From contig CP070758.1 in assembly GCA_020348925.1 (NCBI GenBank), positions 3,443,880 to 3,507,879 on the forward strand: DNA of 64,000 nucleotides, given 5' to 3'. Each line of letters starts with the position of its first letter. The first letter of the stretch is position 1. This DNA is from Gemmatimonadota bacterium (GTDB lineage: Bacteria; JBHIER01; G020348925). A program made the position numbers and the translations under genes. The notes under the pieces are model-generated. The model did not search any database. It worked only from the letters and a program-made list of their open reading frames with translations, and had not been told where the DNA came from. This document shows positions 1,807 to 32,327 of this stretch, piece after piece.

Positions 1807-4353
1807 TTACAGTCGCTCCGATTCATTAATGCCATACTTCTTTATCTTTTTATGAAGATTGCGGCGGCCGAGCTGGAGGGCTTCAGCCGTTTTTGACTTA
1901 TTCCAATTGTGTCTCTTCAGTGCTTCAATAATGAATTCTCTCTCAAACCGCTCCATTGCTCCGGTTAATGTGATTTCTTCAGAGACCTTCTCAGAGACTG
2001 AGACGGTCTCCTTAATATTCGGCGGCAAATCCTCGGCCTGAATCATTAAACTTTCCCGCAGCAGAAGAGCTCTCTCAATACACTGCTCCAGCTCCCTCAC
2101 ATTTCCCGGCCACGTGTAGCTCATGAGAAGCCCCATAGCTTCGTCACTGATACGAAGGGGCTCCTCACCCGCCCTCCGATGGAGAGCATGTTTCACCAGA
2201 ACAGGAATATCCTCTTTTCGCTCCCTGAGTGGTGGCATGTGAATCGGGATGAGATTGAGCCGGTGGAAAAGATCCTCCCGAAACCGGCCGGCCTCCATTT
2301 CGGCCTGAAGATCCTTGTTCGTGGCGGTAACGATCCTGACGTCGACGCGAATGGTCTCGGCCCCCCCCACCCGCATGAACTCCTTGCTCTCGATGACGCG
2401 CAGGAGCTTGGCCTGAGTCCCCGGAGGCATGTCGCCGATCTCGTCCAAAAATATCGTCCCGCCATTGGCCAGCTCAAACTTGCCGACCTTCTTCGCCGTT
2501 GCCCCGGTGAAGGCCCCCCTTTCATGGCCGAACAGCTCGCTCTCGACCAGTTCCCTGGGAATGGCTGCGGCATTAATAATGACTAGCGGCCCGTCCTTCC
2601 TGCGGCTGTTATAATGAATGGCCCGGGCAACGAGCTCCTTGCCGGTGCCGCTTTCACCAGTGATGAGGACGCTGGCATCCGACTCGGCCACGCGATCCAC
2701 AACTTTGAGAATCTCTAGGACCTTCGACGAATCCCCCACAATGTGGGAATACTCGCCCCGAAGCTCTTCTCGCTGCGGACCTGTCCCCGCCTTCGCGAAT
2801 TGATACGCCTCGGCCCGCTTCAAGCGCCCGGTGACGTGCGACAATTTTCCCTTCAGGTCTCTCGTCTGCTCTTCAAGCTTCTCCCGTTCCTTCACCAGAA
2901 GTTCCCGTTCTTCCATGATTATTGCCACCCGGTCCGATATCTCCTCATCACCCATGGCCTCAAGATCCTTCTGCCGATTCTCGATCTCCCCCCTGATTTT
3001 ATTGAGATGCCGTTCTCGCGTCAGCAGGTCTTCACTCAACTCAAGAGCCCTTCGTTCAGCAGCGAGCCTCTCCTTCTCCTGACGCCGGAAGAGATAGATA
3101 TGAATGAAGAGGGTCGAAAACACGACGCCCCCCCACGTCTGGTTGACACGCATCCAGACATTCCCCATGGCAAGGGACAGGTACGCGTACACACCTGTGG
3201 CGATCAAGAGCAGGATTGAGATGATCGTTCCCCGAACCGTTCCCACGTTCGGAAAGAGAAAACCGATGACGAGCGCACACAGAAGAATACTGAACAGGAC
3301 AGATCCCACTCCTGCCTTTGTAACGAAATTCCCCTGCAGGATATTATCAAGAATGTTCGCTTGAATTTCAAGAAGCGGTTGATGATCGGCACAGGGCGTC
3401 GGCCGCACGTTGGCTGCCCCTGTAGCCGTCATCCCCACGAAAACGATCTTGTCTCTCAGTTTCTCGAGGGAAAGAAGCGGTTCCTCGCCTTCAAGTATTT
3501 GTCTGTAGCTCTGGAGGATCTGGATGAAGGAGTAGTTTGTGTAGCGACCCGGACCGCCGGCATAGTTGACGAACATCTCACCTTTCGACGTCACAGGGAT
3601 TCGGACAAAAATCCCATCGGAGCCCGTCATCATCATCCATTTTCCTTGAATGCGAACGTCACTTTTTTCAACGCCCAGAAGATCACCGGCCATGGACAGG
3701 GCCAGGGACGGGTAAAGTTCACCATTATATTCGATGACAAGGGGACTCTTCCTCACGACGCCGTCCTCATCGGCTAGGATATTTCCGTGGCCGGTTCCGG
3801 AAGCCGCAAGGATAAGGTCCTGAAAGGGGAAAATCCCGCCGAGCGCACGGTTGTATTTCGTCTCTTTCTCCGGAACCGGTTCACCGATTCTGGCCACATC
3901 CGAGGAGACCCAAAACTCCTCAGGGATAAATTGCTCCTCTTCGAGATAAAAGAAATAGGGGTACGAAACATTGCCGGAGGAACGGGTCAGGTTTACCAAC
4001 TGCTCATCGTACTCGGGATGCTCGGTGCTCCGCTCCGAAAAGAGGAGGTCGAACCCGACAGCCCGGACATCGTATTCGGACAAAATGTGCAGGAAAGTGG
4101 CGTAGAAATCCCGGCTGATGGGCCAGGCTCCGATCTTCTCGATAGTGTCGTCCCCGATGAAGACGAGGATTATGTCCGGATGGGGGTCGTACCCCCCACG
4201 AAGCCTCAGGAAGATATCGTAAGTCCTTTTCTCGAAACCGATAAAGAACGAAGTGTAGGACAGCCCGAAGAACAGGAGAAAGACGACGACGGCAAGAGTC
4301 GCACATATTATGCTTCCCCGCAGATCGATTCTATTGTGCCAACTCATATTCAT
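1807..4353 (-). CDS. membrane-bound CHASE2 / sigma-54 AAA+ / Fis regulator
   Basis: Single-chain sensor and transcription activator (848 residues from this ATG). Order: transmembrane helix (about 14-37), CHASE2 sensor domain outside the membrane (about 40-345), three further membrane helices (about 350-422), a long coiled coil (about 423-520), sigma-54 AAA+ domain with Walker A GESGTGKE (566-573), the sigma-54 contact loop GAFTGA (613-618) and Walker B FLDEIGD (about 635-641), then a C-terminal Fis-type helix-turn-helix. It should hydrolyse ATP to open sigma-54 holoenzyme complexes in response to an external signal. An in-frame TTG at 4458 would add 35 residues, but it lies inside a dispersed repeat, so the ATG at 4353 is preferred. 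The sigma-54 promoter at 177-192 is a nearby candidate target. Confidence 0.9.
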
Positions 4354-4443
4354 AATAGTTCTAAAAGTATAATAAAACTCATCGGGTCCCCGTTCTTCTT
4401 CTTCAAATATAGGGCTGGAAGACCGCGTTCCGCAAACAATTTC

Positions 4444-4646
4444 TGGTTCGAATTTCAAATTTTGAGTATCGGATTTCGGATTTACGATTCCAGAGGGCGA
4501 GGGTCCTCACGAACTGATACGAAGAGAACGTGTTCCTCAACAATTCCGTCATTCTGAGCACGGCGAAGAACCTCCATATTTGGTGAAAGAGATCCTTCGT
4601 CACGGAGTCTATCCCGTGCAACGACACGGGATTCCTCAGGATGACA
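4444..4646. repeat. ~200 bp dispersed repeat, copy A (REPIN-like core)
   Basis: Shares its whole length with copy B at 7880-8073: an AT-rich head of the GGATTTCGGATTT type, GTCCTC.CGA, then GTCATTCTGAGCA...GCGAAGAA, ATCCTTCGTCACGGAG, the hairpin ATCCCGTG-CAACGA-CACGGGAT and CCTCAGGATGACAG. The ends (GTCATTCTGAG and CTCAGGATGAC) are inverted copies of each other, as in REPINs. It lies between the sigma-54 activator and the metalloprotease gene. Confidence 0.75.
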
Positions 4647-4721: not shown

Positions 4722-7604
4722 CTAAGGTGTCAAGCAGGTCCCGAGGCCCAGGGTGACATTGACGATCCCCAGCACATCGACGATATCCACCAGGTCATCG
4801 TCATTGCAGTCAGCAGCCCAGTATTCGAGATCACTCGGTTCCTCAGTGCCCAACACAATGTTCACCCCAAGCAGGGCATCGATAATATCGATCATCCCGT
4901 CATCATTCACATCGCCCTTCAATCCCTCGTGGATAGTGATGGAGAGATCCTGAATATGGCTGAGCATCTCCGAATCCCTCACCTCAACGCTGACGGCCAT
5001 TATGCCCGCGGTTGAGGGCGTCCCTGAAATCACACCCTCAGTGGGCTCAAGGGTCAGCCCCTCCGGCAGTGAACCGGCCACGATACTCCAACTGAACGGC
5101 GGGGTTCCTCCCACGACGAAGAGAGTCTCGTTGTATGCGAAACCGACATATCCATCCTGCATTGCGTTCGTTACAATAGTCAGGGAGGGGTCATAGAAAA
5201 TGTCGTCCTGAAAAGGCTCGGACCAGTTCCCGGCCACATCTCGAAATTGAACGGAGACGGTTTTTACGCCATCGAAAAGGTCGCCGCCAAACTCTGCGGC
5301 CGTCAGGTCCCACCCGCTCTTGACACCGGCGTAAGCTTCAGGCTCGGACCACAAGGTCCCGTCGTTGCTGAACCGCATGCGGGCCCCAGCGCCCATGCCG
5401 CTCAGGGCATCCGCAGCCCTGAGATCATCCAGACCAACGATGGCCACGGTGGTTGTGTCATCACCACCATGCACCGAGATTGTGCCGTCCGTCGGTGCCG
5501 AAAGATCAATCCAGAACGGCCCCACATGGAAAGTATTTCCCCAGTTGCCGGCGACATCCCCACACCGGATGTGGAAGTAATGGTCGTCACCACCACTTAG
5601 GGGCGGAGAGGTGGCTCGCTCCTCACCCTTTCCAACATCCACCGTTTGATCGGGCACAACACTTGGAAATCTGTTCCACACAACCGAATATCCGTCGAGG
5701 CCGCTTCCAGGGGCAGGATCAGCGGCATCGGTCCAGATGATCTCCAGGGTGGGGTTGTCGGACCAGAGGCTCACATCATGGCTCGGACTGGCGACATCGG
5801 TCGGCCCCTCCGGCGGGACAGTATCCTTGGAGAACCACCAGCTCCAGCTGCACCCACCCCCGACGTTGTCGGCGCTGTCATCGACCTTGAAGTATATGGT
5901 GTGACTGCCTTGAGACAGATCGTCGAAGCCGGGGACGGACCAGCCATCGTCGTCCCAGGAGACACCGCCCCAGTTAGTAAAGAGCTCCAGCCAAGCGCCG
6001 GAGCAGGAGTTGAGTTGATACCAGCCGTCATCCAACCCGAACCCGTCGTCAAACCCGAAGTTGGAAAAAGCGGGCGAGGTGCTGTACCATGCACCCTGTG
6101 GCTCGGCGATGGGCTCCATGGTCGGCGGTGTCGCGTCGGCACCCTGCTGTGCGGTATAGGTGTAAGCGAGACGAGTCCCCCACGAGGACAGGACCACCGG
6201 GATGAGGATGATCCGGCTCGAGCTTCCCCAGTCCGCGGACATGGAACCGGCGTCACCTCCACCGAGATTCATCTCCTCGAAGCCCACCCCGGGATAGTAG
6301 GCCACCATGGCCGCCCAGTCGCGTCCGTCCTGCCCGTCAAAGGTGATATGCAACCCTTCCTCCACCCCCAGTGCCGGTCTATTCAGCTGTATAAAGTTCG
6401 TGCCGTAGTAGTCGGGCGGCTTGTTATCCTGATTCCCCTCCGCCGGATAGCTGGTGTGGATGTGGGAAGATCCCACGTAGGAATCAATCCAGCTGCCTCC
6501 CTCCGAGAAATGCTGCCCGTCATCCCTCGACCCGGTAAAGTACCGCCACACCGAGTACTCCTTGAGAGCCTCCTCGAAACTGCTGCCGTAATGCGTGGAG
6601 AGGACATGGTCAATATCATCGAGCGTATGGTTTCCCTGATTCGCGCCGTTGCGGTCCCAAACTCTTCTCGGCATGTCGTTGTCGGTGTGCCTTTCGGTCA
6701 AATAAAAGACCCACACACTGGCCCCGTATTCGTACTCGCCGTTGGCCCTGGTGATGGGCAGCTCCGGCCAGTAGAGGGGGTTCTCCCACCCGCTGGAGAT
6801 ATAGTTGGAGTAATCGTTCACCCGGTCGTAGACCATATCCTCCATCCACGTGGCGCAGTTCTCGTACCAGAAATCCGACTCCCGGTCGCTGTAGCTGAAC
6901 TGGCAGGCGTGATTGAACTCATGGGCGACCGTTACCTGGGCCAGGTCCAGCCCAAGGCCGGCCGCAATCACAATATAACTCGTCACGTCCTCCTGGTTGG
7001 GATCAGGCCCGTCCTGTTCCGGCTGGCAGTAACCGACCCAACCCCCCATGCCACTATCCACGATGTAGAAATCGTATTCATCCCCATCGATTCCGTCCGG
7101 CGGCGGAGCGTCCCAGCCCATCTCCTCAACCTCTTTGCTCCAGCTCTCCTCCGCATAATCCGAAACATTTTCGGCATATCCCTGAGACACCGCATCCACA
7201 CCCGAGGTGGTGTAGTGAATCCTGAAATGGGCGGTCGTGATCACGGTTTCAGGTCCACTGAGTGTGGGGCGCTGCATGGAACTTGCGAGGATGTTTCGAG
7301 TGGTTTCGCTCACTCTGTGCACATCCCGCCAGGCATGCAACAGGGGCAACATCCCGCACCGCGTTTTTTTCTCCCCCCGGAATTTTTCGGGCAGCTTCCC
7401 GTAGTCCTTGACAGCGTAAACATTATAGGTACGCGCGGTCTCGTAGTCGATTTCGTTCGATTGATAAGCCTTCACTATTTTTCCGAAAGCGGTCGCATTC
7501 AATTTTTGAGGCCTCTTCTCCTCCGTTGCGTGGACTACAACTTTTCCGAAGAAAAGCGGACACAACACCAACAACAGCCCCAGTGTCAAACGGATATGTC
7601 TCAT
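4722..7604 (-). CDS. secreted MXAN_6640-type metalloprotease with dockerin
   Basis: About 960 residues. The start at 7604 gives a clear signal peptide (MRHIRLTLGLLLVLCPLFFG); longer frames start upstream of it without merit. The zinc-peptidase core has HEFNH at about 228-232 and a third-ligand Glu in WYENCATWMED at about 248, the pattern of the MXAN_6640 family of putative metalloproteases. Next come Ig-like segments (TPPTMEPIAEPQG, DTVPPEGPTDV, a putative-Ig tail with PPFSWSIVAGSLPEGL), then a C-terminal dockerin pair: GDVNDDGMIDIIDAL...VNIVLG and DCNDDDLVDIVDVL..VNVTLG. It should cut proteins outside the cell and be docked to a cohesin-bearing partner not seen here. Two direct repeat copies flank the gene. 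Confidence 0.88.
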   Translation of the reverse strand: MRHIRLTLGLLLVLCPLFFGKVVVHATEEKRPQKLNATAFGKIVKAYQSNEIDYETARTYNVYAVKDYGKLPEKFRGEKKTRCGMLPLLHAWRDVHRVSETTRNILASSMQRPTLSGPETVITTAHFRIHYTTSGVDAVSQGYAENVSDYAEESWSKEVEEMGWDAPPPDGIDGDEYDFYIVDSGMGGWVGYCQPEQDGPDPNQEDVTSYIVIAAGLGLDLAQVTVAHEFNHACQFSYSDRESDFWYENCATWMEDMVYDRVNDYSNYISSGWENPLYWPELPITRANGEYEYGASVWVFYLTERHTDNDMPRRVWDRNGANQGNHTLDDIDHVLSTHYGSSFEEALKEYSVWRYFTGSRDDGQHFSEGGSWIDSYVGSSHIHTSYPAEGNQDNKPPDYYGTNFIQLNRPALGVEEGLHITFDGQDGRDWAAMVAYYPGVGFEEMNLGGGDAGSMSADWGSSSRIILIPVVLSSWGTRLAYTYTAQQGADATPPTMEPIAEPQGAWYSTSPAFSNFGFDDGFGLDDGWYQLNSCSGAWLELFTNWGGVSWDDDGWSVPGFDDLSQGSHTIYFKVDDSADNVGGGCSWSWWFSKDTVPPEGPTDVASPSHDVSLWSDNPTLEIIWTDAADPAPGSGLDGYSVVWNRFPSVVPDQTVDVGKGEERATSPPLSGGDDHYFHIRCGDVAGNWGNTFHVGPFWIDLSAPTDGTISVHGGDDTTTVAIVGLDDLRAADALSGMGAGARMRFSNDGTLWSEPEAYAGVKSGWDLTAAEFGGDLFDGVKTVSVQFRDVAGNWSEPFQDDIFYDPSLTIVTNAMQDGYVGFAYNETLFVVGGTPPFSWSIVAGSLPEGLTLEPTEGVISGTPSTAGIMAVSVEVRDSEMLSHIQDLSITIHEGLKGDVNDDGMIDIIDALLGVNIVLGTEEPSDLEYWAADCNDDDLVDIVDVLGIVNVTLGLGTCLTP

Positions 7605-7879
7605 ACGAAAACTACCCTTTCTTGGAAAGAACACACAGCGAGATACGTTTCTTACTGATACGAAAAACACGTACATTGAACAGCAACCCGACCGAAATTC
7701 ATTCCTCCACATTCGACCTGAGGGGTGAATATAATGGAAAAAGGGAAAATCGACAAGGGTATCTTAGGGATCCTGAAGGTCCAGGTCTCTCTCGGTCTCC
7801 TCGTGCCCAAACAGAGTTTTGAATCATGGAGTGCTCATCCGCAACAAATCCGAAAATCAAATGACCACATACCCTTTTT

Positions 7880-13161: not shown

Positions 13162-13215
13162 CTTCTTTTTCATTGTCCACAGATTTGAGGTCCTGAGCTT
13201 TATGTGAAAAAACGC

Positions 13216-13244
13216 TTGACAAGGCGGACACTTTTTGCTAATAT
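13216..13244 (+). promoter_or_regulatory. strong sigma-70-like promoter for M1 peptidase
   Basis: TTGACA, 17 bases, TAATAT, with an extended -10 TG (TGCTAATAT). The start of transcription near 13251 lies 73 bases before the ATG at 13324. It also rules out the longer reading frame beginning at 13204, which would start upstream of the promoter. Confidence 0.8.
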
Positions 13245-13323
13245 GATGCACGTGGTACTGGGAACGCTTCTTTGGGCATCTATCGGAAAAGGATTCATTC
13301 ATCATACACAAAGGAGGTCTGCC

Positions 13324-16206
13324 ATGAAAAGGCTGTGGATCTTCCTCTCTTTTCTGTCGCTGCTCCTTATCCCCCTCTCCGCAGAGAGCGAGCGGGGCAG
13401 AGAGCACCTCGTGCGGATCAGAGAAGAGCGGAGAAGGATGCAGGAGGCCGTTCAAGAGGCCATTCGGTCGGCCAAACAGCCGATTCTCTTGCAGGTTGAA
13501 GGCCAGGAGGATTTTGATGTCACGTATTACCGGCTCGATCTCGATGTCGATGTGGACAATGAAACTCTGGACGGGAGCGTGACCCTCAGGGCGACGAGTC
13601 TCATTTCGGATTTAACCGAGATTGTCCTGAACTTCTACGATGATATGCCAGTAACCTCAGTAACCGGGGATGCCTCGGGATTCACCCATACTGATAATTT
13701 AGTGACCGTCTCGCTTCAGACCTCTTACAGCGCGGGTCAAAGCTTCGAAGTGGTGCTCAACTATAACGGGCATCCCTGGGAGGGAAATTTGGGCCTGAGT
13801 TTTGTGACCGTTTCCAATAATCCCCTTGTCTATACCGAATGTTCGCCCTTCTTCGCCCGGGCGTGGTGGCCCTGCAAGGACACACCGGTGGACAAAGCGA
13901 ATTCCATGGATCTCCATATAACGCTCCCGGACAACCTCGTCTTAGCCTCAATCGGCGCGCTGCAAAGTGTCGTCGACAACGGTGACGGCACCCAGACCTG
14001 GCACTGGCATGAAGGTCATCCCATCGCCACCTATCTCGTCTCCATTACGGCCTATCCCTACCGAACATTCTCGGACATCTATGAAGGCGCTGGCGGGCAG
14101 GCGATGGATGTGGACTATTACGTCTATCCTGAGGACTACGCCCTCGCTTTGGAGGACTTTAACGAAATCGTGGACATGATCGAGTTTTTCGCCTCCAAAT
14201 ACACCGAGTACCCTTTCATCGATGAAAAATACGGTATGGCCGAATACACCGGCTACTATGCGGCCATGGAGCACCAGACATGCACCAGCTACGGTTCCAG
14301 TTACATCACCGGTGATCACTCTTGGGATTCCATTATTGCCCATGAACTGTCCCACCACTGGTGGGGGAATTCCGTCTCCGTCGGAAGCTGGCACGACGTC
14401 TGGCTCAAGGAAGGTTTTGCCTCCTATTCCGAAGCCCTGTGGATGGAAAACATCGACGGATCGTACGGTTTACAGGATTATATGGTCACGACCCAGCTCG
14501 CAGTGGATCTGCAAGAATCGGTCTACCGATATGACATCACCGACGCCGGGAACATTTTCGTCTCGGAAGTATACGACAAGGGAGCCTGGGTGTTGCACAT
14601 GCTGCGCCACGTGGTGGGTGATGAAAACTTTTTCCAGATCCTCCAAAGCGTCTATGAGACGTACGCCTTCGGCAACTTCGTGACCGAGGAGTTGAAGGAT
14701 GCCTGCGAGCAGATTTCCGGCCAGGATCTGGACTGGTTCTTTGAGGAATGGGTCTACGATGTGTGGCATCCGGAATACTACTGGGGCTGGAACAGCAACG
14801 ATCTCGGAGACAGCTTCGAGATCACGGGCTTCATCGATCAGATCCAGTCCAGAGGTCCGGTCTTCACCATGCCCGTCGAAATGGCCATTGCCACAGCCGC
14901 GGGTGACACCATCATCGTGGAAACCCTCTGGGTCGACGAAGGGTCCGAACGCTTTCAACTCGTGGTGAACGATGAGCCCACGGACGTCCTCCTCGATCCC
15001 TACAACTGGATTTTAAAGGAACAGAGCATCATCACCGACCCCCTCGTCTCGTACGTCATCAATCGGGTCGACGACGGAAATGGGAATGGAGACGGGCGGC
15101 CCGATCCCGGTGAAACGGTCGCTGTGATTGTTACCCTGGAGAACATCGGCACAGACGTCTTCGGGCTGGAAGCAAGTCTGGGTACAACGGACCCGGATAT
15201 TGAAATAACGTCAGCGGTCTCGTCGTACGGCGATGTCTCACACGGGACCATGGTGGGGAACGAGGACACACCTTTCACCATCGAGGTGCATCCCGCGGCA
15301 GAGACCCACGTCGTCATGTTCAAGCTCAATTTCACAGGACAGAACGGGTACACAGGCCTCGACAGCTTCTACCTGACCATCGGGACGCCGAGGGTCCTGC
15401 TGGTGGACGACGACGGCGGTGATGAAAACGAGAGACCCTATCTCAATCCGTTATCGATCAAAGCTATTCCCTTCCAGATGTGGGATGTCGCCGCCGAGGG
15501 TCCTCCGGGGGACACCTTAATGTTCTTTGACGTCATCGTCTGGCTGACCGGTGCCGAACGGGACAATACCCTTCGTGCCGCTGATCAGGCGAGTCTTGCC
15601 GCATACCTTGACGCGGGCGGAAGTCTCTTCCTCAGCGGACAGGACATCGGCCATGATCTCTTCGAGAGGGGCAATGGGATCGATTTCTTCAGCAATTATC
15701 TCCACGCCACCTTTGAGGCCGATGAAACGAGCGAGTATTTCCTGCAGGGGATAACCGGTGATCCCATTTCGGGTCAATTTGGGCTGCTGCAGCTCGATGC
15801 TGCCCAAGAGAGCCCCGACGTCATAGCCCCTGGGGAGGGGGCAAACAACACGCTCAACTACAGCCCCTCGGGAAATGCCGCCGGGATAAAATACGGGGGG
15901 GATTACAGAGTCGTTTACTTTTCCATCGGATTCGAGGGAATACGAACCTTGACCGGTGCCAGCGAACCGATGAGGGCGGATATGTTGGACAATATCATAT
16001 CGTGGCTGCAGATTGTGCCGGAAAAGGGAGATGTGAACGAAGACGGATCCATCAATATCCTCGATGTTCTGGCCACGGTCAACATCGTATTGGGCTTGCT
16101 CTCCCCCACACCGACCCAGCAATGGGCGGCCGACTTCAACGAAGACGGTGCCGTCGATATCATCGATGCCATTACGATCGTTAATTACATCCTGGGTCTC
16201 AGGTAG
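13324..16206 (+). CDS. secreted M1-family aminopeptidase with dockerin
   Basis: 960 residues; AAAGGAGG lies 7 bases before this ATG and a signal peptide follows (MKRLWIFLSFLSLLLIPLSA). The M1 zinc peptidase covers about 60-480: zinc site HELSH at 340-344 and Glu in WLKEGFASY at 363, with the substrate motif YAAMEHQT (about 311-319) in place of the usual GAMEN. The C-terminal M1 helical domain is absent. Then come an Ig-like domain (PDPGETVAVIVTLENIG), a Rossmann-like segment (VLLVDDDGG...LDAGGSLFLSGQDIG), and a terminal dockerin pair GDVNEDGSINILDVL and DFNEDGAVDIIDAI. Likely role: trimming peptides outside the cell, docked through its C-terminus. Confidence 0.92.
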   Translation: MKRLWIFLSFLSLLLIPLSAESERGREHLVRIREERRRMQEAVQEAIRSAKQPILLQVEGQEDFDVTYYRLDLDVDVDNETLDGSVTLRATSLISDLTEIVLNFYDDMPVTSVTGDASGFTHTDNLVTVSLQTSYSAGQSFEVVLNYNGHPWEGNLGLSFVTVSNNPLVYTECSPFFARAWWPCKDTPVDKANSMDLHITLPDNLVLASIGALQSVVDNGDGTQTWHWHEGHPIATYLVSITAYPYRTFSDIYEGAGGQAMDVDYYVYPEDYALALEDFNEIVDMIEFFASKYTEYPFIDEKYGMAEYTGYYAAMEHQTCTSYGSSYITGDHSWDSIIAHELSHHWWGNSVSVGSWHDVWLKEGFASYSEALWMENIDGSYGLQDYMVTTQLAVDLQESVYRYDITDAGNIFVSEVYDKGAWVLHMLRHVVGDENFFQILQSVYETYAFGNFVTEELKDACEQISGQDLDWFFEEWVYDVWHPEYYWGWNSNDLGDSFEITGFIDQIQSRGPVFTMPVEMAIATAAGDTIIVETLWVDEGSERFQLVVNDEPTDVLLDPYNWILKEQSIITDPLVSYVINRVDDGNGNGDGRPDPGETVAVIVTLENIGTDVFGLEASLGTTDPDIEITSAVSSYGDVSHGTMVGNEDTPFTIEVHPAAETHVVMFKLNFTGQNGYTGLDSFYLTIGTPRVLLVDDDGGDENERPYLNPLSIKAIPFQMWDVAAEGPPGDTLMFFDVIVWLTGAERDNTLRAADQASLAAYLDAGGSLFLSGQDIGHDLFERGNGIDFFSNYLHATFEADETSEYFLQGITGDPISGQFGLLQLDAAQESPDVIAPGEGANNTLNYSPSGNAAGIKYGGDYRVVYFSIGFEGIRTLTGASEPMRADMLDNIISWLQIVPEKGDVNEDGSINILDVLATVNIVLGLLSPTPTQQWAADFNEDGAVDIIDAITIVNYILGLR

Positions 16207-19993: not shown

Positions 19994-20035
19994 CATTTGA
20001 ACCGCCGGACTCTTGAAAAACAAAGGAATACCTCA

Positions 20036-21784
20036 ATGACGTGGAAACAAGCGGCACTGTTGATAGGTATTGTTGTTACGCATGTGCTCCCCGCGGCGGC
20101 TGGCGAAAGTCCCTGGCCGATGTTCCGGCATGACCGAAGCCACACCGGCCGGACCCCATACAGCGGCCCTGCGACGCCCACTCTCAAATGGATCTTCTCA
20201 GCACACGATGGCATAGCCTCCTCGCCGACAATCGGTCAAGACGGCACCATCTATATCGGGGCCGGCTGGAATTTCCGAGGGGTGACCGACTCAAGTCTCT
20301 ACGCCATTCATCCTGACGGAAGCTTGAAGTGGCGTTTCAAGGTAACGAACGGAATTTTTTCATCACCGGCCATCGGCCCGGACGGGACCCTCTACGTCGG
20401 TTCACTCGACAGACATCTCTACGCCATCGAAGACTCCGTCACGTACGGGAAATTGCGATGGAAAACGCACCTCAATCATTGGATCTATTCATCCCCGGCT
20501 CTCGGTCCTGATGGAACCATATACGTGGGGAGCATCGATTTTCACGTCTATGCTCTTCATCCTCATGGTGCCGTGAAGTGGAACTACTTGACCGATTGGT
20601 GCGTCTTTTCCTCGCCCGCCATCGGTCCGGATGGAGAGATCTATATCGGCTCCAAGGACCACCATCTGTATGCCTTTGAGGATTCCCTGACATACGCTAA
20701 CGTCAGGTGGCAGTATGCTACCGGTCAGTTCTACGACGGTCATCTTGTGGACTCCTCGCCGGCCATCGGCCCGGACGGAACCCTCTACGTCGGAACAGAC
20801 CCCTACGGGGCACACGGACAAACCCCGGTGCCGGTGCGCTCCGTGTTCTTTGCCGTCAATCCCAACGGTACTCTCAAATGGGTTTTCCCTATGGACGACG
20901 GTGCCGAGTCATCACCGGCCCTTGGACCGGACGGGACAATCTACATCGGCTCATATGACGGCCATCTCTATGCCATTCGCGATGAGGGCAACAGAGGAGC
21001 CTTACAATGGAAATTTTCGACCGGCGGCTGGATCGACGGCTGCCCGACCGTGGACGGCTGCGGTGTGATCTACGTTGGCTCGCGGGATTCGACAGTGTAC
21101 GCCATCAATCCTGACGGAACCCTCAGATGGAGTTTTTCGACGGGTGGCGAAATCGAATCCTCGCCCACCATCGACGACAGGGGGATCCTCTACATCGCCT
21201 CCTTCGACGGAAATCTCTACGCCCTCGGGACCGGCGGACCTGATGTGGGTGTTGCTTCCATTGATCTTCCCGAAAAAATAGAAATAAGCACGGCACTCAC
21301 CCCTGCGGCCACGGTCACGAATTATCGCTCTGATCCTCGAAGCTTCACCGTATCATGTCGTATTGACTCCAGCGGCCGCAGAATATATGCAGATACGGTG
21401 CGTGTCCGTGATCTGGCTGAAGGGGCATCGCAACTGGTAGCCTTCGCGCCACGGACAGTGGGGCCCGATCCGGAGACCTTCTATAATGTCACCGTCATCA
21501 CCTCCCTTTCCGGTGACGGGAATTGGTACAACGACACCCTTTCGACCCAGATTGAGACAACAGAGGTCATCAGAGGTGACGTGAATGGGGACAAACAGAT
21601 CGACGGTCTCGATGCGGTTCTGGCCGTGAACATACTCTTAAAGAGACACGCGCCGACCCTCTTGGAGTTTCGGGCTGCCGACTGCAACGGGCCGGCAGGA
21701 AGCTGTGCGGGCGATGGTGTCATCAATATCCTGGATACAGTCAAGATTGTGAGACTGCTTTTGGGAGTGGAGGAGTGCCCTTGA
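20036..21784 (+). CDS. secreted PQQ-like beta-propeller with dockerin
   Basis: 582 residues from this ATG, which has AAAGGAA before it (an in-frame TTG at 19997 is less likely). Signal peptide QAALLIGIVVTHVLPAAAG. Eight blades follow, each marked by SSP(A/T)(I/L)GPDGT(I/L)Y(V/I)G or a close variant, as in PQQ-type propellers; no catalytic dehydrogenase residues are evident, so a binding or structural role is likely. An Ig-like segment (AATVTNYRSDPRSFTVSC) leads to a C-terminal dockerin pair: GDVNGDKQIDGLDAVLAVNILL and, with an insertion CNGPAGSCAGDG, VINILDTVKIVRLLLG. The same insertion style occurs in the deiminase at 30609-32327. Its end overlaps the CDF gene by 10 bases. Confidence 0.88.
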   Translation: MTWKQAALLIGIVVTHVLPAAAGESPWPMFRHDRSHTGRTPYSGPATPTLKWIFSAHDGIASSPTIGQDGTIYIGAGWNFRGVTDSSLYAIHPDGSLKWRFKVTNGIFSSPAIGPDGTLYVGSLDRHLYAIEDSVTYGKLRWKTHLNHWIYSSPALGPDGTIYVGSIDFHVYALHPHGAVKWNYLTDWCVFSSPAIGPDGEIYIGSKDHHLYAFEDSLTYANVRWQYATGQFYDGHLVDSSPAIGPDGTLYVGTDPYGAHGQTPVPVRSVFFAVNPNGTLKWVFPMDDGAESSPALGPDGTIYIGSYDGHLYAIRDEGNRGALQWKFSTGGWIDGCPTVDGCGVIYVGSRDSTVYAINPDGTLRWSFSTGGEIESSPTIDDRGILYIASFDGNLYALGTGGPDVGVASIDLPEKIEISTALTPAATVTNYRSDPRSFTVSCRIDSSGRRIYADTVRVRDLAEGASQLVAFAPRTVGPDPETFYNVTVITSLSGDGNWYNDTLSTQIETTEVIRGDVNGDKQIDGLDAVLAVNILLKRHAPTLLEFRAADCNGPAGSCAGDGVINILDTVKIVRLLLGVEECP

Positions 21785-28230: not shown

Positions 28231-30465
28231 TTGAAAAGGAAAGCCCATCACTGTTGTCTACTCTTTCTTCTCACCGCGCTCACCTGGGGTGCAGTTCAAG
28301 GGCAATACGGAACACTATATTACGATGGATTCGAAAGAACGTACATCCTGCATTGTCCTCCATCCTACGACGGCTCGTCGGCCGTCCCCCTCATCATCGG
28401 CCTGCACGGCGGTGGCAGTTCTGGTTCTTCTTTCGAGAGCATTACGGAATGGAGTCTCAAAACCGATCTCGAAGGATGCATCGCCGTCTATCCCTTTGGC
28501 GTCAACGGCGGGTGGAATTACGGGGGATTTTACGATTCGAATATCGACGATGTCGGATTCATCTCCACGCTCATTGATACTCTTTCGAGTGAATATGCCC
28601 TTGATCTGAGACGCATTTATGTCACAGGCTTCTCCGCGGGAGCACTCATGTCCTACCGCCTGGCTGCGGAACTGTCCGAAAAAATCGCCGCCATCGCACC
28701 TGTGGCCGGTCAGATGGTCTTGGAAGAGATCAATCCGAGTCGGCCGGTCCCGATCATCCATTTCCAGGATGTAGACGATCCGAGAGTACCTTTCGAAGGT
28801 GACGATGATTTTCCATCGGTCGCATCGGTCATCAACACCTGGATCGAAATAAACGGGTGCGACCCGGATCCTGATACCATTTATAATCAGAACGGCATAC
28901 TCGGAACGAAATGGTCCGCGATTTCCACGCGGGCGGACATCATATTATTTACCCTCACAAGAGGTGGACACTACTGGCCCAAAAGGGATATCTATGCAAA
29001 CGATTTCATGTGGGATTTTTTTATCGCGCATCCGATTATGACTGATGCTCCCTCCCCCTATTTTCAGGCCGAGCGAAGAACAGGACACGCGCCATTGGAC
29101 GTTCAATTTACGGATATGACGGTGACGCTGCATCCTCTCAGGGCCTGGACGTGGGACTTCGATCATGATAACATCACCGATTCCAACGAACAGTATCCTT
29201 TTTGGACTTACGAGGAACCGGGGACGTACACCGTGAGCCTGGAGGTCTCGAGCGATGCCCTCTCAGGGACCGTAACACGGCAGAGATATATTCAAGTTTT
29301 CAACGGTGAAAGTGCGGTCCTGTTCAACGGTGTGAACAGTTACGTTTCCTGTTCCTCCTCACAACATCTGAATCTTACCGATAATTTTTCATTGGAAGCG
29401 TGGATATATCCCACCGGCTGGGGTGAATTTCCGACCATCGGATTCGCCAGAGTGATCGAAAAGGGAACGATCTCCGTCTGTCTTGTTGATTCGTTTCCTC
29501 CCTGTCATAATCACAGCCTGCTCCTCATACTCATGCATGAGGATGGAGTGATGAGTTATTCCAATGCGCCTCAAGGTTCGATTGTACTAAACCAATGGCA
29601 GCATATCGCAGTAACATACAATGGGTACGACTGCGTCACAATATACAGAAACGGCCTTGAACAGGATGTCACATATCCTGTGCCCCCCACCGGTGCCATC
29701 AAAGAGAACACGGACGTTGATCTCTATATAGGCAATTCTCCCGATCTCGGGGGGTCTTTCGAAGGGCACATCGATGAAATTCGAATCTGGAATCATGAAC
29801 GAACTCAAGAGGACATTCAAAAAAACACGAACCACCGTCTGTGCGGCAGTGAAAGCGGGTTGGTGGGATACTGGAATATGGACGAGGGGAACGGAGAGAG
29901 GGTCTCTGATAATTCTCTCCATGGCAATGATGGGACAGCAGTCAATGTGACCTGGAGTGAAGGCATTCATCATGAATCGCCGAGAGACAGCGACGGAGAC
30001 GAAATCTTTGATTGCAGCGACAATTGCCCTCAGGATTTTAATACTGATCAAGGGGATGAGGATGAGGATGGTGCAGGCGATGTCTGCGACAATTGCCCTG
30101 AACTCATGAATCCCGATCAAACGGATAGAGATACTGACGGAACCGGCGATGCCTGCGATTCGTGTACCGACACCGACGGCGATGGATATGGTGATCCGGA
30201 CTATGCAGCCAATACGTGTGACGAGGATAATTGCCCACATGTCTCCAATCAGGATCAGGCACCGGTTGAAAGAGGGGATATCGATTGTATTGATGGCGTT
30301 GACGTACTCGACGTCCTATCGGTCGTCAACCACATATTAGGGAATACCCCCTTGATAGGAAGCCCCATCGACCGGGCCGACTGTACAGGCGACGGACAGG
30401 TCGATATCACGGATGTCGTGGGCATAGTTAACGTCATACTGGGAACGGGAACATGCGCACCGTGA
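28231..30465 (+). CDS. secreted PHB-depolymerase-like esterase, PKD, LamG, TSP3, dockerin
   Basis: 744 residues from a TTG start (GAAAGGATG upstream; the only in-frame start giving the signal peptide CCLLFLLTALTWGAVQG). Esterase domain (about 30-270) of the LpqC/feruloyl-esterase type: LHGGGSSG, nucleophile Ser135 in GFSAGA, acid in DVDDPRVPFEG and His in RGGHYWP. Then a PKD domain (about 277-355, WTWDFDHDN...YEEPGTYTVSLEV), a LamG/concanavalin-like domain (about 365-540), thrombospondin-type-3 calcium repeats (DSDGDEIFDCSDNCP, DEDEDGAGDVCDNCP), and a dockerin pair (GDIDCIDGVDVLDVL, DCTGDGQVDITDVV). Probably cuts ester links in polysaccharide- or lignin-type material outside the cell. Confidence 0.88.
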   Translation: MKRKAHHCCLLFLLTALTWGAVQGQYGTLYYDGFERTYILHCPPSYDGSSAVPLIIGLHGGGSSGSSFESITEWSLKTDLEGCIAVYPFGVNGGWNYGGFYDSNIDDVGFISTLIDTLSSEYALDLRRIYVTGFSAGALMSYRLAAELSEKIAAIAPVAGQMVLEEINPSRPVPIIHFQDVDDPRVPFEGDDDFPSVASVINTWIEINGCDPDPDTIYNQNGILGTKWSAISTRADIILFTLTRGGHYWPKRDIYANDFMWDFFIAHPIMTDAPSPYFQAERRTGHAPLDVQFTDMTVTLHPLRAWTWDFDHDNITDSNEQYPFWTYEEPGTYTVSLEVSSDALSGTVTRQRYIQVFNGESAVLFNGVNSYVSCSSSQHLNLTDNFSLEAWIYPTGWGEFPTIGFARVIEKGTISVCLVDSFPPCHNHSLLLILMHEDGVMSYSNAPQGSIVLNQWQHIAVTYNGYDCVTIYRNGLEQDVTYPVPPTGAIKENTDVDLYIGNSPDLGGSFEGHIDEIRIWNHERTQEDIQKNTNHRLCGSESGLVGYWNMDEGNGERVSDNSLHGNDGTAVNVTWSEGIHHESPRDSDGDEIFDCSDNCPQDFNTDQGDEDEDGAGDVCDNCPELMNPDQTDRDTDGTGDACDSCTDTDGDGYGDPDYAANTCDEDNCPHVSNQDQAPVERGDIDCIDGVDVLDVLSVVNHILGNTPLIGSPIDRADCTGDGQVDITDVVGIVNVILGTGTCAP

Positions 30466-30608: not shown

Positions 30609-32327
30609 ATGTTCGCCTGTCACCCGAATAGAGCTATCATGGGTTTGGTAGCCCTGTGTGTACTTTGTGGCAGCGGTGATATGCTCACAGGCTCTCCGGA
30701 TGGCTCGAAAGCACAGGATGCTCATTCTTGTGATTTTTCTCGTGCTCAAATTCCTCCCTGGTCGAAAAAAATGACAACAGAGGAACGCACCGCACCATCA
30801 GCAGACATAAGAATATACGAATCGAAACGTCTTCCGTCTTCACCTGTTCGGACGCCGGCCGAGTTTGAACCCTGTCGAGGAGTGATTATTTATTGGGATC
30901 TGGAGTACGAACAGGATTTGGAGGGTATGTTTCTGCCTTTGATCAGAAACATGGATCCCACCAATATTATCTATATCGGTTTGGAGCGTGAGACCGACCG
31001 GGTTTCTGTAAGGAGAAAAATCGCAAGAACAGGGTGTTCCATGGATAACATCAAGTTTCTTGTCTATCCCTGTTCTCCTTTCTGGATGCGGGATTTTGGG
31101 CCCTTCTTCGTGTACGATTCCAGCCATGATTTGGCGGTCATAAATACGGGCTATCGCCTGTACTTGCCTCAGGCTGACGATTTCCCTCGATTTTTTTCCC
31201 TCGAGTTTGGTTATGAATGTTACGATACTGGATACGAATTGGATGGCGGCCATTTCATAACGGATGGGAGGGGATTGGTTGCCGTGACCGATCACTTCTA
31301 TTGTTTGAATCCGTCATTATCGCGTGCGCAGGGAGATTCTCTGATGGCGGCGTATTTTGGGTGCGATCGATTGCTCGTTTTTGAGACGTGTCAAGAGAGC
31401 GGACATTTCCTTCACATTGATGTGTTCGCCAAGTTCCTGAACGCGACAACGGTTTTGGTGTCACAGTCTGAAGACACGACGATTGTGGAATACAACCTCT
31501 TGGAGAGTTTTGCCAGTGTTTTTGATACCCTCAAGGCCTGGACCGGCACTCCCTTCGATGTGGTGCGGGTCCCATGGAATTATTATTATACATATATAAA
31601 TTCGCTCATACTTGACAATCAGGTTTTTCTACCGGTGTATCAACAACCTGCAGATTCGCAAGCCATAGCAGCATATCAATCTGTGCTGCCGGACCACGAA
31701 ATTGTACCAATAAACTGCCAATACTTTTTCAATCAGTTCGGAGGTGCCATCCACTGCCTCACGCGGGAAGTGCCTGAGGCTATCCCCACTTCAGGGGTGA
31801 AAGTTACGAGTGGACCCGATACAGGCAGCGCAGCAGGAGAAGATGTACCGGTTACCTTTACAATTCACAACGAAGGTCTCGTATCGGATACATACGATAT
31901 CGAAATCCAAGATGATGAGGGCTGGAATTTGAATTTTCGTTCCTCTGAGCTCACTCTTGCATCAGGAACAGATACAACCCTTTCAGTTAGAGTAACAATT
32001 CCCGATACGGCCGTTGAGGGATCAATCAATGAAGTTATGCTCACTGCCACATCGCAGATCGATCCCTCGGTGCGAGGCACAAATTCAGTGTCAGTGACGG
32101 TCTGCGAAAAAAACAAGGGCGATGTGAATACCGATTGTGCCCTCAATGTCCTGGATGTTGTCTGGATCGTGAACAGTATTCTTGAATTGAGAGAACTCAG
32201 TCCGAATGAAATGTGGCGAGCCGATTGTAATGGCCCACTGGGCACCTGTGACGGCGATGGAGGTGTCGATGTCCTGGACGCACTCAAGATTGTGAATGTT
32301 ATTTTGGGATTGGATGCGTGTCTCTGA
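30609..32327 (+). CDS. secreted peptidylarginine deiminase-like enzyme with dockerin
   Basis: 572 residues; signal peptide MGLVALCVLCGSGDMLTG region. The PAD_porph/agmatine-deiminase domain covers about 80-395 with all catalytic positions of P. gingivalis PPAD visible: Asp162 in WMRDFGP, His269 and Asp271 in HFLHIDVF, Asn337 in LDNQVF, Cys383 in GGAIHCLT. It should convert arginine side chains or agmatine-like guanidines to citrulline-type products plus ammonia; export favours a protein or peptide substrate. An Ig-like segment (PVTFTIHNEGLVSDTYDIEI) precedes a C-terminal dockerin pair (GDVNTDCALNVLDVV; DCNGPLGTCDGDGGVDVLDAL). It follows the esterase gene by 143 bases. Confidence 0.88.
   Translation: MFACHPNRAIMGLVALCVLCGSGDMLTGSPDGSKAQDAHSCDFSRAQIPPWSKKMTTEERTAPSADIRIYESKRLPSSPVRTPAEFEPCRGVIIYWDLEYEQDLEGMFLPLIRNMDPTNIIYIGLERETDRVSVRRKIARTGCSMDNIKFLVYPCSPFWMRDFGPFFVYDSSHDLAVINTGYRLYLPQADDFPRFFSLEFGYECYDTGYELDGGHFITDGRGLVAVTDHFYCLNPSLSRAQGDSLMAAYFGCDRLLVFETCQESGHFLHIDVFAKFLNATTVLVSQSEDTTIVEYNLLESFASVFDTLKAWTGTPFDVVRVPWNYYYTYINSLILDNQVFLPVYQQPADSQAIAAYQSVLPDHEIVPINCQYFFNQFGGAIHCLTREVPEAIPTSGVKVTSGPDTGSAAGEDVPVTFTIHNEGLVSDTYDIEIQDDEGWNLNFRSSELTLASGTDTTLSVRVTIPDTAVEGSINEVMLTATSQIDPSVRGTNSVSVTVCEKNKGDVNTDCALNVLDVVWIVNSILELRELSPNEMWRADCNGPLGTCDGDGGVDVLDALKIVNVILGLDACL

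Follow-up and report, generated by a model that had tools for sequence, protein, structure and literature searches.

The window analysed here was a stretch of 64,000 nucleotides, corresponding to positions 3,443,880-3,507,879 of a 5.04-Mb single-contig genome of a Gemmatimonadota bacterium. It contained a gene for a predicted secreted deiminase with a C-terminal dockerin, preceded on the same strand, about 143 bp upstream, by an esterase-like gene whose dockerin scored slightly below threshold. Start codons were taken as the first in frame. The features in the window, followed by three loci located elsewhere in this genome, were:

30609-32327, + strand: open reading frame with ATG start, PAD_porph-family deiminase with C-terminal dockerin, predicted secreted, 572 aa
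30609-30680, + strand: predicted signal peptide (from the sequence), with the hydrophobic core AIMGLVALCVLC at residues 9-20
30849-31775, + strand: PAD_porph catalytic domain, residues 81-389 (Pfam)
31797-32057, + strand: Ig-like domain, residues 397-483 (Pfam Ig_VWA7; beta strands in the model)
32115-32318, + strand: predicted type I dockerin (Pfam; calcium-loop pattern)
28231-30465, + strand: PHB-depolymerase/esterase-like extracellular protein, the upstream neighbour (PKD, laminin-G, TSP3, sub-threshold dockerin)
G000:C1:2,611,867-2,612,811: PAD domain of the PAD-dockerin paralog, L001 (profile match)
G000:C1, about 2,581,700-2,613,200 (L198:1687-19999 plus L144:2-15166): dockerin-peptidase array
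G000:C1, 3195454-3196383 (L197:6434-7396): carbamate kinase gene, arcC

The preliminary description had read this frame as an extracellular arginine deiminase joined to a dockerin, and that architecture was confirmed, with the signal peptide, PAD_porph, Ig-like and dockerin regions all lying in the one 572-aa frame. The PAD_porph profile (PF04371) was matched over its full length (positions 1-321; E 3.9e-41; 141.8 bits against a cut-off of 25) and was followed by Ig_VWA7 (E 6.5e-8) and by Dockerin_1 at residues 503-542, the last of these being marginal (23.3 against 22.9 bits). The first dockerin loop, DVNTDCALNVLD, was complete (D505, N507, D509, N513 and D516); the second (D539...D557, extending to about residue 570) was broken by a Cys-bracketed insert. 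At the N-terminus an Arg-containing n-region preceded the hydrophobic core (mean hydropathy 2.9). Of the 95 secreted relatives, 89 had a hydrophobic N-terminal segment, whereas only 1 of 27 agmatine deiminases did, and the segment of the window protein was as strong as those of the relatives; the signal peptide therefore withstood a check for a false call, as far as sequence can tell, and the protein is very probably located outside the cell.

Exactly two PAD_porph genes were found in this genome, the window gene and one paralog, both predicted to be secreted. The paralog had the same architecture (signal peptide, PAD_porph, Ig-like and dockerin), was 46% identical overall and carried an N-terminal segment equivalent to the AIMGLVALCVLC core. 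The presence of a second, separately located copy with the same four parts excluded a chance fusion or frame artefact.

Alignment with the peptidylarginine deiminase of Porphyromonas gingivalis (PPAD) paired D130, H236, D238, N297 and C351 of that enzyme with D162, H269, D271, N331 and C383 of the window protein. Four of the catalytic positions named initially (Asp162, His269, Asp271 and Cys383) were thereby upheld, but Asn337 had been misassigned, since N297 aligns with N331, in the motif YINSLIL; N337 lies one motif further on and is a Lys in the paralog. All five catalytic residues were kept in the paralog. The window protein is likely to carry out deiminase chemistry.

The best sequence match in the PDB was PPAD (E 3.4e-33), the best agmatine-deiminase-type chain reaching 6.6e-24. 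A structure predicted by AlphaFold2 from an alignment of 45 sequences was confident for the catalytic domain, where the block pLDDT was mostly 82-96, but less so for the Ig-like and dockerin regions (about 50-65); the Ig-like part was modelled as beta strands with a pLDDT of about 50-63. When the model was used in Foldseek, seven PPAD chains ranked first (1.8e-34), followed by agmatine deiminases (1.8e-26). The PPAD alignment covered 439 columns and thus included the Ig-like region. Vertebrate PAD2 was a weak fold match only, and the vertebrate-type PADI domains PAD N, M and C gave no Pfam match in the window protein.

In a 68-row IQ-TREE phylogeny the agmatine deiminases filled one side of a 100/100 branch and the window pair lay outside. 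A constraint test that forced the pair together with a deep agmatine-deiminase subclade was rejected (p 1e-6); placement inside the main PPAD clade was not rejected (p 0.34). The phylogeny with PPAD and agmatine deiminases proposed in the preliminary description therefore did not nest the window protein deep inside the cytosolic agmatine deiminases. The tree, the hydrophobic segment and the constraint test together bore out the view of an exported protein of the PPAD/agmatine-deiminase fold that is not a cytosolic agmatine deiminase, and a cytosolic agmatine-deiminase origin was left unsupported. The pair formed a long branch and shared about 33% identity with its nearest relative; where exactly it belongs within the PPAD group was therefore unsure, and placement is claimed for the PPAD side only. 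No close relative outside this genome was found in a single-sequence scan of genome contigs, and nothing above 34% identity to the window protein was present among the matches listed from a profile scan of GTDB genomes. A search for plasmid carriage gave distant matches only, the annotated ones belonging to the agmatine deiminase family.

In PPAD, R152 and R154 grip the C-terminal carboxylate of the substrate and the preceding carbonyl (PMC4487231). Among 90 secreted relatives, Arg occupied the first position in 88 and the second in all 90, and neither arginine was found in any of 26 agmatine deiminases. These positions were L184 and L186 in the window protein, and E and L in the paralog. As the pair is near-universal among secreted relatives, its loss represents a real departure in this genome, and PPAD-type protein citrullination by the window protein is not to be assumed. 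The loss argues against PPAD-type exodeimination and would make room for internal arginine, though on its own it proves no substrate; endo-specificity, for internal peptidyl-arginine, is our prediction. Y233 of PPAD corresponded to H266, at a position that was variable or uncertainly aligned across the family.

Dockerins were very common in this genome: 150 of the 525 first-look candidates were scored, and at least 147 matches exceeded the cut-off. The cohesin matches, 81 in all, were modest, and over 70 of them passed the cut-off. A type IX secretion system (T9SS) was indicated by a SprA-type translocon and at least 150 T9SS-tail matches. Since 31 of the 81 cohesin stretches had a T9SS tail in the same frame no more than 1.3 kb downstream, the cohesins seem to be surface-displayed, and a T9SS-displayed cohesin-dockerin system is possible. 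In other frames of this genome a dockerin was observed directly ahead of a T9SS tail. Profile searches found no T9SS sorting tail in the window protein, the C-terminus of which held the Ig-like and dockerin regions only; we infer that docking on T9SS-tailed cohesins would be its simplest way to the surface. Among 90 C-terminal halves (88 relatives and the two proteins of this genome), 41 had a T9SS tail and 17 had Dockerin_1. By calcium-loop pattern, the dockerin-bearing PAD relatives were mainly from Zixibacteria and Neomarinimicrobia. The dockerin fusion, initially described as unfamiliar, thus proved not to be special, recurring in those relatives and serving as a C-terminal tag widely across this genome; its treatment as an unusual fusion was rejected.

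The paralog lay 189 bp from a convergent gene for a 1520-aa peptidase of the C25 (gingipain) family with a dockerin. The roughly 30 kb ahead of that C25 gene held a tandem series, all on one strand, of genes for one carboxypeptidase (M14), one aminopeptidase (M1) and at least six M28 peptidases, and a dockerin was visible in nearly all the peptidases of the array. The whole array of dockerin-tagged M28, M1, M14 and C25 peptidases measured approximately 32 kb and ended at the convergent paralog. Other genes in the window encoded an M1 aminopeptidase with a C-terminal dockerin (13204-16206), a beta-propeller protein with a dockerin (19997-21784), a DUF6055/Ig protein with a dockerin near threshold (4722-7712) and a single protein combining a CHASE2 sensor, a sigma-54 activator and an HTH domain (1807-4458).

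Carbamate kinase (389.9 bits against a cut-off of 358.25) and ornithine carbamoyltransferase (408.9 bits) were both encoded in this genome, and arginine deiminase gave a partial match only (28.8 bits). The arcC gene was not adjacent to the ornithine carbamoyltransferase gene and was followed by succinyl-CoA synthetase-like and 2-oxoacid:ferredoxin oxidoreductase-like genes, named by eye. This gene set fits a picture in which protein is broken down outside the cell and citrulline is used, the intracellular genes being unspecific evidence. Ornithine carbamoyltransferase is nearly universal, arcC may belong to a different pathway, and no citrulline transporter was identified.

An extracellular deiminase of a small guanidine, such as agmatine, free arginine or another metabolite, would also lack R152 and R154, as the agmatine deiminases do, and the Cys loop of the window protein, GGAIHC, was nearer to their GxxHC than to the DALHC of PPAD. 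However, the window protein resembled PPAD in having short versions of loops that are extended in agmatine deiminases: the span corresponding to D130-H236 was 108 residues (105-118 in secreted relatives, 117-128 in agmatine deiminases) and that corresponding to H236-N297 was 63 (61-74 and 72-91, respectively). Moreover, the pair was placed outside the agmatine deiminase clade, the score for the agmatine deiminase equivalog TIGR03380 fell far short of its cut-off (64.7 against 381.8 bits), no match in this genome reached the equivalog cut-off for aguB of the agmatine pathway, and the paralog stood among peptidases. A small substrate was therefore considered unlikely.

Relatives of the PAD_porph family were widespread. 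A profile scan of GTDB genomes returned at least 582 confirmed candidate stretches, the best 80 of which were spread over many candidate phyla of the FCB group and beyond (WOR-3, Zixibacteria, Cloacimonadota, Stahlbacteria, Latescibacterota, Eisenbacteria, Krumholzibacteria and Neomarinimicrobia), Bacteroidales and Thermoplasmata archaea; the earlier statement that such enzymes are known mainly from Porphyromonas does not hold. Among the best 80 and related loci, 18 had a C25 peptidase within the retrieved stretch, and in two (L049 and the archaeal L093) PAD and C25 were fused in one reading frame. Against a genome-wide baseline of 685 C25 matches in 158 Mb from 50 genomes, 14 of 50 loci had a linked C25 compared to 2.9 expected (Poisson P 3e-6), in a test devised after the pattern was seen, with rounded genome sizes and a non-random sample of loci, which had been fetched through a single conserved motif and ordered by how similar they were to the window protein. 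A C25 lay within 700 bp of PAD in 8 cases compared to 1.0 expected (P 1e-5), and linkage persisted when archaea were left out (9 compared to 2.2 expected, P 4e-4).

In the gingipain RgpB, Asp163 forms a salt bridge to the P1 arginine (PMC9559808). Of 16 PAD-linked C25s, 11 had this residue, compared to none of 49 same-genome unlinked controls, which were drawn from a score-ranked list and were not random (Fisher 5e-9). In one complete archaeal chromosome, 1 of 23 C25s had the Rgp motif, and it was the one 85 bp from the PAD gene. Rgp-type C25s with Asp163 adjoined or were fused to PPAD-like genes at L049 (G140), L093, L112, L114, L101, L072, L131, L117 and L048; the C25 of L114 matched gingipain R at 2e-101. 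This recurrent gingipain R-PPAD module spanned Bacteroidales, other bacteria and Thermoplasmata archaea.

Such linkage to Arg-type C25s could favour a PPAD-like exodeiminase acting on C-terminal arginine released by an Arg-specific peptidase, with other residues substituting for R152 and R154; PPAD was also the closest solved relative, and the paralog adjoined a gingipain-family gene. However, the two arginines so widely kept among secreted relatives were lost in both paralogs, and the C25 beside the paralog had no equivalent of Asp163, so that its identification as an Arg-gingipain was unsupported. The arginine-specificity Asp was absent from all 11 C25 peptidases of this genome that were examined. 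Loss of the PAD clamp in both paralogs thus coincided with absence, among the C25s examined, of the peptidase type that makes C-terminal arginine. We consider a PPAD-like exodeiminase quite unlikely. That the protein is degenerate, lacks catalysis or serves for binding alone, as a long branch with few close relatives might suggest, is highly improbable given that five catalytic residues were kept in both paralogs despite 46% overall identity.

We lean, with some reserve, towards the explanation that the window protein is a peptide-arginine deiminase of a cohesin-docked extracellular protein-degrading system and not a PPAD-type exodeiminase. It would be an exported cysteine-dependent guanidino deiminase from the PPAD side of the PAD_porph family. 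After Sec export, its dockerin may attach to a cohesin of a surface or scaffold protein, and the docked enzyme would act on peptides that neighbouring peptidases cut loose, converting their arginine to citrulline and ammonia and perhaps accepting internal peptidyl-arginine; with no carboxylate clamp, a PPAD-like preference for C-terminal arginine is not expected. Exopeptidases could then free citrulline for uptake and use by ornithine carbamoyltransferase and carbamate kinase, which makes protein catabolism, with a gain of nitrogen or energy, a likelier role than host modification. The missing arginine-gripping residues, together with a dockerin common to many digestive peptidases, indicate that the protein probably aids extracellular protein breakdown. 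Both halves of the PPAD-Rgp coupling, the clamp and the Rgp-type C25s among those examined, were absent together, which supports this explanation. Against it, the peptidase array adjoined the paralog whereas the neighbour of the window gene was an esterase, the window dockerin was marginal in score, with an interrupted second loop, and the cohesin matches were modest.

PPAD, an enzyme associated with gum disease that converts arginine to citrulline, has been studied as a virulence factor linked to rheumatoid arthritis. A 2022 review described it as present solely in P. gingivalis (PMC9559808), a 2025 review restricted its list of carriers to other Porphyromonas species (PMC12599369) and a 2021 study reported that pPAD genes were wider spread than thought (PMC8826395). 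Neither the PAD-C25 pairing nor the PAD-dockerin fusion was found in the open-access full texts searched. The present data place PPAD within a large family of exported enzymes from bacteria and archaea of the environment, which are time and again found linked with, or fused to, gingipain homologues of the Arg type. This spread and linkage suggest that the Rgp-PPAD pair may have originated as a protein-digestion module and not as a virulence tool. A broader scheme can be offered tentatively, and we doubt that all of its parts hold jointly: a surface 'peptidosome' would carry, on T9SS-displayed cohesins, dockerin-tagged peptidases of both endo- and exo-type along with two peptidylarginine deiminases that lack the clamp; these deiminases would have switched from the C-terminal-arginine specificity of PPAD to endo-type citrullination of environmental protein; and the parent family would be an ancient module, present across many bacterial phyla and in archaea, in which an Arg-specific gingipain is paired with a deiminase of C-terminal arginine. 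The window pair represents natural variants without the C-terminal-arginine clamp, by which the PPAD substrate rule becomes testable, and hints that a T9SS bacterium has a counterpart of the cellulosome for degrading protein.

When compared to known systems, the window protein shared with PPAD (PDB 4YT9, 4YTB and 5AK7) the fold, the catalytic D/H/D/N/C set, a signal peptide, a post-catalytic Ig-like domain and short active-site loops; it differed in having no R152, R154 or Y233, in carrying a dockerin in place of the T9SS sorting domain and in its identity of about 22% (structural alignment). Agmatine deiminase (AguA, TIGR03380/NF010070) belongs to the same superfamily, with the same catalytic residues and no R152 or R154, but is cytosolic, has longer loops and no extra domains and falls in a separate clade. 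The PPAD-like proteins of Zixibacteria and Neomarinimicrobia (for example L064, L107, L104 and L123) likewise combine a secreted PAD_porph domain with a C-terminal dockerin; unlike the window protein, they keep R152 and R154 and fall within the main PPAD clade. Finally, as in cellulosome-type systems, many dockerin-tagged enzymes and cohesin-bearing proteins were encoded in one genome, but here the array beside the paralog consisted of peptidases and many of the cohesins were on T9SS-tailed proteins.
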